Shown: one piece after another, positions 3,513 to 4,835 of the stretch
Position numbering within the stretch: position 1 is the first letter of the stretch
Layout of the letters: each line of letters starts with the position of its first letter
Assembly: GCF_019739195.1 (NCBI RefSeq)
Contig: NZ_JAHHDS010000003.1
Location: 1,488,001-1,552,000 of the forward strand
DNA from: Microcella sp.
Lineage (GTDB): Bacteria > Actinomycetota > Actinomycetes > Actinomycetales > Microbacteriaceae
Length of the DNA stretch: 64,000 bases
Reading direction: 5' to 3'
Translations under genes and position numbers: made by a program
The notes under the pieces: generated by a model
Databases searched by the model: none
The model's input: only the letters and a program-made list of their open reading frames with translations
What the model was told of the DNA's origin: nothing

Positions 3513-3839
3513 TCAGTGCTCGACGTCGCTCACGAGCTTGAGCGCCACGACGCACGCGACGATGCCGAGCACGAGTAGCAGCTTGATCACTGAGGCGGTC
3601 TCGGCGCCGGTGATCATGGCCCAGACGATCGTCAGGCTCGCGCCGACGCCAACCCACACTGCATACGCGGTGCCGGTCGGAATCTCGCGCATGGCGATAG
3701 CGAGTCCGAGCATGCTGAGGGCGAGGGCGACGAGAAAGACGATCGACGGCACGATCTTGGTGAAGCCTTTGGATGCTCCCAAGGCGGTAGCCCAGACGGC
3801 TTCGAGCACGCCCGAGGCGAGCAAGATGATCCACGACAT
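3513..3839 (-). CDS. gdx: SMR-family guanidinium exporter (Gdx/SugE type)
   Basis: Four-helix small multidrug resistance protein (108 aa) working as a dual-topology dimer that exports guanidinium in exchange for protons. The essential glutamate is E13 in GVLEAVWA, and the IPTGTAYAVW stretch in helix 3 matches the SugE/Gdx branch rather than the EmrE branch. The decisive evidence is upstream: the leader holds a guanidine-III riboswitch ending close to the start codon. The ATG at 3839 follows a hairpin whose loop contains the AAGG ribosome site. It is a single-gene unit, convergent with the preceding gene. Confidence 0.9.
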   Translation of the reverse strand: MSWIILLASGVLEAVWATALGASKGFTKIVPSIVFLVALALSMLGLAIAMREIPTGTAYAVWVGVGASLTIVWAMITGAETASVIKLLLVLGIVACVVALKLVSDVEH

Positions 3840-3841
3840 GA

Positions 3842-3896
3842 GGTCAGCCTTCTGACCCGTCTTGTCGCTGTCCGGGTACGGGATACCTCGTCCGGG
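3842..3896 (-). promoter_or_regulatory. Guanidine-III (ykkC-III) riboswitch with alternative ribosome-site hairpin
   Basis: Read on the minus strand, 3896-3856 gives CCGGACGAGGU, then CCCGUACCCGG, then GACAAGACGGG. These are the conserved segments of the guanidine-III class. The CCGG/CCGG and CCCGU/ACGGG pairings of its pseudoknot are both possible. Directly downstream (3857-3842) GGTCAG and CTGACC form a hairpin with AAGG, the likely Shine-Dalgarno, in the loop. Its 5' arm shares bases with ACGGG, so aptamer and hairpin compete. Guanidine binding would then open the ribosome site (inference). This fits the exporter it precedes. Confidence 0.9.
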
Positions 3897-3953
3897 GGCT
3901 CTCTCTCGAGCTCAACTCTAGAGTTGCACGGCAACCTGCTCATGCACTGTGCA

Positions 3954-4667: not shown

Positions 4668-4670
4668 ATG

Positions 4671-4693
4671 GAGTGGAGCCTAGGAGAATCGAA
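4671..4693 (-). repeat. Duplicate of the 3' end of tRNA-Ala
   Basis: The 23 bp at 4671-4693 are identical to 4760-4782, which cover the acceptor 3' strand and T arm of tRNA-Ala plus three flanking bases. After that the match ends, so this is a fragment and not a tRNA gene. The two copies are in direct orientation 89 bp apart. Confidence 0.75.
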
Positions 4694-4762
4694 CCCCGCG
4701 ACCGCAGGTTATGCGGTTGCGCGTCGAGCCTGAGCGCGGGCAAGAGAGCGGCGGGCAAGGAG

Positions 4763-4835
4763 TGGAGCCTAGGAGAATCGAACTCCTGACCTCCTGCTTG
4801 CAAAGCAGGCGCTCTACCAATTGAGCTAAGGCCCC
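4763..4835 (-). tRNA. tRNA-Ala (TGC)
   Basis: 73 nt on the minus strand: acceptor GGGGCCT pairs with AGGCTCC, the D arm has AGCTCAATTGGTAGAGC, the anticodon loop is TTTGCAA (anticodon TGC) and the T loop TTCGATT. CCA is not encoded. It is followed downstream (lower coordinates) by the duplicated 3' fragment. Confidence 0.97.

Follow-up and report, generated by a model that had tools for sequence, protein, structure and literature searches.

The aptamer and its exporter gene

The locus lies on the minus strand of the window (the whole 64,000-nucleotide stretch of Microcella sp. DNA that was analysed) and consists of a guanidine-III aptamer (3851..3916) followed by a gene for a 108-amino acid SMR transporter of the Gdx type (3513..3839). 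Assignment of the leader to the guanidine-III class, as made in a sequence-only reading of this DNA, is confirmed by cmscan of the whole window: the RF01763 (Guanidine-III) model matches positions 3916-3851 with 54.0 bits (gathering score 36; E 2.2e-8), and the alignment covers its full length (1-67). The aptamer stands in the leader of a guanidine-related gene, as is characteristic of RF01763, with 11 nt between the 3' end of the match and the ATG at 3839. The three segments quoted in the sequence-only reading are found on the minus strand at 3895-3885 (CCGGACGAGGU), 3882-3872 (CCCGUACCCGG) and 3866-3856 (GACAAGACGGG), and the conserved RF01763 core (CCGGACGAG, CGUACCCGG and GACAAGACG) is present in the alignment. 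The extent originally given, 3842-3896, is too short for the aptamer: the Rfam match runs on past 3896 to 3916. This is the one guanidine-III match in the source genome at E<=0.001. The window's other matches at gathering scores are three tRNAs, near which a short repeat (gaagcggcatcgcgccg) is found; a 25-bp fragment from the 3' end of the tRNA at 4835-4763 recurs some 90 bp from it (4670-4694 and 4759-4783).

The 5' part of the leader contains a possible -10 element, TAGAGT (3915..3920), weakly indicated by the placement of TANNNT in relatives: among 100 of them it is found 68 times at 30-35 nt ahead of the CGGACGA core, and the window copy is at -26. A sigma-70 promoter scan found no consensus pair. 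A perfect palindrome, CAACTCTAGAGTTG (3913-3926), covers this presumed element and is not kept in locus L109. The upstream hairpin P0 of the Rfam model (GCUCG..AGAGC, 3898..3911) is followed by the strands that we take to be P1: CCGG at 3892..3895 (5' strand, leading into conserved ACGAGG) and CCGG at 3872..3875 (3' strand). The first of these is placed by sequence and by the class pseudoknot described in PMC5696562. The P2 5' strand CCCGU (3878..3882) pairs with ACGGG (3860-3856), and judged by sequence only, both pseudoknot pairings (P1 CCGG/CCGG and P2 CCCGU/ACGGG) are possible in the window.

The transporter matches PF00893 (Multi_Drug_Res) with 67.4 bits (cut-off 23.7; E 1.6e-18), and its closest solved relatives are 6wk5 (the best, E 1.3e-17) and 8vxu. 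We take 6wk5 to be Gdx-Clo; the structure record states the SMR family only. The window protein resembles it in aligning without gaps over residues 1-104 and in carrying E13, W16, S42, Y59 and W62 (read from the sequence and this alignment). It differs in that only 36 of the 104 residues are identical (manual count) and in its SugE score: NCBIfam SugE (NF008512) is the best of 21 SMR models for this protein, but its 82.9 bits fall below the cut-off of 126, and the protein is therefore not filed as an NF008512 equivalog. PMC7695847 gives W16 as a conserved residue of Gdx proteins, its place being taken by Gly or Ala in Qac proteins. The PF00893 match, the 6wk5 alignment and the five residues bear out the earlier claim that the downstream gene is of the Gdx type. 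The accompanying claim, that it exports guanidinium and not drugs, was too strong in excluding drugs: hydrophobic guanidinyl compounds are also carried by Gdx proteins (PMC7695847), and Gdx-linked resistance to quaternary ammonium compounds is described, without direct transport data (PMC12186494). The source genome has one SMR gene over the Pfam cut-off, the second match scoring 21.6 bits (below 23.7). Among the best 80 of 524 confirmed loci in a survey of genome contigs, the nearest named relatives of the protein belong to Microcella, together with bins labelled Actinomycetota; the aptamer was found by pattern in 74 of these 80, and 15 of the 20 that were scanned with Rfam matched. In locus L105 (match 1501-1566, from an incomplete genome), the N-terminal codons of the exporter run straight into its C-terminal part, which is either an internal deletion or an assembly error.

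Both the class and its pairing with an exporter gene are already known, and the find itself is ordinary: the family to which Microcella belongs, the Microbacteriaceae, has guanidine-III at E<=0.001 in 100 of the 199 genomes sampled (over cut-off in 93), the genus has it over cut-off in 12 of 26 genomes, and the class has it in 175 of the 394 sampled. In PMC2864571, ykkC-III is described as occurring mainly in Actinobacteria, before emrE and speB genes. Bound guanidine-III is an H-type pseudoknot in the crystal structure from Thermobifida fusca (PMC5696562), where binding is said probably to destabilise competing structures and so to expose the ribosome site, 16 nt from the end of the aptamer. 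The window leader shares with this class its core segments, its P1 and P2 pseudoknot strands, its position before an SMR gene and a presumed ON switch that works by exposing the ribosome site. To all appearances it is a guanidine-sensing switch of known class, and a genuine one, before a guanidinium exporter gene, with a predicted response to the ligand.

A predicted start-codon hairpin

Downstream of the core, a 6-bp hairpin sharing bases with ACGGG had been proposed in the sequence-only reading, and it does exist: GGUCAG-AAGG-CUGACC (3857-3842) shares GG, and a G.U pair made by G3858 with U3841, with the P2 3' strand. Its loop holds the ribosome-site core AAGG (3848..3851), within GAAGGC, the best anti-SD match in the window leader. 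AAGG ends 8 nt before the ATG, and the earlier statement that it stands two nt before CTCATG is incorrect. With G3858.U3841 included, this apical hairpin folds with -10.0 kcal/mol when the P2 3' strand is free and with -2.4 kcal/mol when the five bases of that strand are withheld. Among 300 spacer shuffles, about 1% equalled the -10.0 kcal/mol of the local stem (p 0.013), and the contribution of the P2 strand to the 6-bp hairpin has a p of 0.037.

This hairpin is, however, only the top of a larger one. When a longer leader is folded, the stem grows outward on both sides: its 5' arm takes in the conserved GACAAG strand of the aptamer, and its 3' arm runs on through the start codon. The 39-nt piece 3869-3831 without ligand folds with -17.3 kcal/mol (z -3.5; of 200 dinucleotide shuffles, 1 folds as well) into GCGACA.GA..GGUCAG-AAGG-CUGACC.UC.A.UGUCGU, a hairpin of 14 bp in which GCGACA pairs with UGUCGU, GA with UC and GGUCAG with CUGACC, with AAGG looped and the A of AUG mismatched with another A. 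Its 3' arm, UC-AUG-UCGU (3833..3841), is made up of two leader bases, the start codon, codon 2 and the first base of codon 3. Because the conserved GACAAG and the P2 3' strand are used in both folds, the free and the guanidine-bound fold need the same strand, GCGACAAGACGGG (3856..3868), as delimited by the free-state folds and by outer pairs that are found in 11/11 distinct leaders of the genus. At the level of sequence, then, the leader is an aptamer with its core, a Gdx-type gene directly downstream, and GCGACAAGACGGG with two mutually exclusive pairings. Compared with the account of T. fusca in PMC5696562, the window offers a specific competing hairpin that can be named.

The folding program used does not handle pseudoknots, so bound and free states were compared indirectly, by withholding strands. 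Opening the ribosome region of the window was computed to cost 12.7 kcal/mol in the free leader and 5.7 kcal/mol with the aptamer core withheld; the p for this fall is 0.049 with a shuffled core and 0.13 with a shuffled spacer. Accessibility of the SD bases failed as a measure of switching (mean 0.63 both ways), since bases in the loop count as open.

Predicted start-codon pairing in related leaders

Twelve loci over cut-off make up the genus set, 11 of them distinct here (L108 is identical to L106; the sub-gathering matches L114-L128 were excluded). The outer six pairs, GCGACA/UGUCGU, fold in 11/11 leaders, and the inner GA(C)/(G)UC in 10/11, the exception being L103. The apical stems vary in sequence between leaders yet stay paired. 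Spacer-shuffle p values range from 0.007 to 0.118 and are <=0.05 in 7/11.

The family set consists of 100 oriented loci, the starts of 9 of which were set by eye; the sequences are related, and counts over leaders are not independent. When the energy needed to open the ribosome region was compared with the aptamer core free and withheld, the mean fall was 4.27 kcal/mol, versus 1.83 with a shuffled core and 0.93 with a shuffled spacer, and 49/100 loci had p<=0.1 on each of the two shuffles. The largest outside partner of the ribosome region was GACAAG or the P2 3' strand in 81/100 leaders. Restricting the test to the 6-bp hairpin, with GACAAG omitted, gave a weak result (p<=0.1 in 19/100 and <=0.05 in 10/100; mean p 0.40, median 0.29), and a switch from that hairpin alone was rejected.

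The pairing around the start has a sharp register. GCGACAAGACxx pairs at 78% of 11 positions at shift 0, compared with 23-53% at shifts 1-4, and at least 8 of the 11 positions are paired in 84/100 leaders (9/11 in the window); when the aptamer strand is combined with 85 control starts, this is reached in about 11%. These controls, unannotated starts selected with a crude rule based on ORFs and SD sites, supersede 26 window starts (GUC in 3/26). Two of the 11 positions are the U and G of the start codon, four lie in codons 2-3 and five are non-coding bases. As codons 2-3 are constrained by the protein, which begins Met-Ser/Ala-Trp, the non-coding positions are the better witness of pairing. Positions -3, -2 and -1 (mostly G, U and C) pair in 81, 83 and 98% of leaders versus 38, 19 and 50% of controls; positions -4 and -5 are mixed (45 and 83% versus 50 and 45%). 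GUC precedes the start in 68/100 family leaders versus 8/85 controls; the window itself has CUC. By duplex energy against the 85 control starts, 60/100 leaders have p<=0.1, 35 have p<=0.05 and none p<=0.01, and each half taken alone gives p<=0.1 in 39/100 (upstream) and 35/100 (downstream). Single pairs offer little room for covariation, as the aptamer side hardly varies.

Complementarity at the start could instead reflect an inherited start context plus protein constraint, with the ribosome site hidden in another way or only loosely. This explanation draws on 16 Gdx-like genes that lack the aptamer (L140, L153, L190, L268, L274, L276 and 10 of 17 further loci with 44-64% identity to the window protein where listed), in 5 of which (L140, L153, L274, L276 and L294) the start is preceded by GUC; some of the match may thus come from a regulated ancestor or serve another need. 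Absence of the aptamer was judged by pattern, and by cmscan as well for the six loci named first. Excluded from the 16 were L171 and L189, both with a degenerate aptamer-like leader, L196, which is the second of two paired genes, L279, an unclear case flagged by pattern, and six further loci that have the aptamer by pattern; GUC precedes the start in 4 of the 7 flagged rows. The weak result for the local hairpin alone and the small excess in class-wide leaders (see below) also favour inheritance. Against it stand the sharp register, the apical stems of the genus, which change in sequence but remain paired, and the rarity of GUC (2/40) before aptamer-free SMR genes of the family, although 37 of these 40 starts, hand-picked from the listed SMR matches of the family, are not Gdx-like. 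We consider inherited context unlikely as the full explanation.

Some of the aptamer-free leaders have features of their own. Upstream of the Gdx-like genes of L274 and L276 are GTCGCACAGTCGTGCGAC-type palindromes that resemble protein-repressor operators. The Arthrobacter-type Gdx leaders of L140 (751-1060) and L153 (351-660), which have no Rfam guanidine match, are long and similar to each other and have CCUGAC..GUCAGG ahead of the ribosome site, possibly another control element.

At the level of the class, 30 leaders show little excess: the mean fall in opening cost is 2.04 versus 1.70 and 1.03 for the two shuffles, with p<=0.1 in 3/30 and 5/30. GUC precedes the start in 8/30, and at least 8 register pairs form in 13/30. 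A class-wide start-codon platform is unsupported by these leaders, though they are the best-scoring matches and tend to have a longer P2: it has 8-10 pairs in 20/30 of them, whereas that of the window has 5 continuous pairs. Leaders L284, L287 and L288, from another family of the class (f11), carry ACUGACUC; in L287 and L288 it pairs with a GAGUC at the ribosome site, an arrangement shared with some Microbacteriaceae.

Proposed mechanism and a second target

Folding and comparison point to a translational ON switch in which guanidine turns on the guanidinium exporter by strand exchange, and we regard this as the probable mechanism in the window. Without guanidine, GCGACAAGACGGG would fold onto UC-AUG-UCGU and the stem above it, putting AAGG into a tetraloop and enclosing the start codon in a helix, so that translation would be off. 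With guanidine, GCGACAAGACGGG would be kept in the pseudoknot by the core contacts and P2; about 4 bp (-2.4 kcal/mol) of the hairpin would remain, and the ribosome site would be freed. An additional effect on mRNA stability is possible. The translation switch put forward in the sequence-only reading is in this respect supported by folding and comparison, with a competing hairpin larger than the one it described.

For the Microbacteriaceae more broadly, we propose that the aptamer is its own expression platform: CGACAAGAC would be antisense to GUC-AUG-UCG at the exporter start, binding and sequestration would compete for the same bases, and codons 2-3 would be part of the switch. Because the sequences are related and some tests were weak or contrary, strand exchange in the window is held to be no more than probable, and the odds of its family-wide form are about even. 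A search of the open-licence literature, a scope that leaves out Sherlock and Breaker 2017 and Richards and Belasco 2021, found no described pairing between a guanidine-binding strand and a start codon.

Less probable again than inherited context is a main route through mRNA stability, in which RNase E is kept off by the bound pseudoknot and the start-codon hairpin plays a subordinate part. A 2025 review (PMC12186494), citing Richards and Belasco 2021, ascribes such an effect to guanidine-III, stating that guanidine frees the Shine-Dalgarno sequence and shields the mRNA from RNase E. This route is compatible with strand exchange and does not exclude it, but it leaves unexplained why the aptamer strand matches the start codon in leaders of the family. 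A chance match or a degenerate, functionless aptamer is very improbable, as no point in its favour was found and the 54-bit score, the retained core segments and the 12/26 genus genomes over cut-off speak against it.

Not all guanidine-III aptamers of the family precede an SMR gene. At 8 of the 100 family loci (L040, L049, L069, L076, L085, L086, L096 and L099), the aptamer is followed by a membrane-like protein of 82-101 amino acids, with no SMR gene there. Each of the 8 proteins has a match to the NCBIfam CBU_0592 family at E<=1 (the best at 1.2e-11), and the one shown in full scores 37.1 bits, over the cut-off of 25; three of the 8 compared with Pfam gave no match over cut-off. Six of the 8 host genomes (G008, G055, G057, G091, G097 and G126) have no SMR match, in a set where 141/199 family genomes have one. 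In the class, a CBU_0592 relative is found in 34/384 genomes. Guanidine-III lies directly upstream in 7 of the 12 best class loci (L296 and L298-L303; two just below gathering), while the other 5 have none at E<=0.05. Judged by coordinates, aptamer and gene are also neighbours in G438, G339 and G306, in the last of which there is an internal stop. The motif LEGVWA, invariant in the 8 proteins save for one L, resembles LEAVWA around E13 and W16 of the window Gdx protein, perhaps by chance. The CBU_0592 protein is a candidate guanidine-handling membrane protein and may take the place of Gdx; no link between guanidine-III and the CBU_0592 family was found in the open-licence literature.

This second target of guanidine-III could lead to a new guanidine-handling protein. 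For the exporter leaders, PMC5696562 calls the mechanisms of guanidine classes II and III less well established, and for class III the Microbacteriaceae offer a specific, testable switching partner with comparative support.
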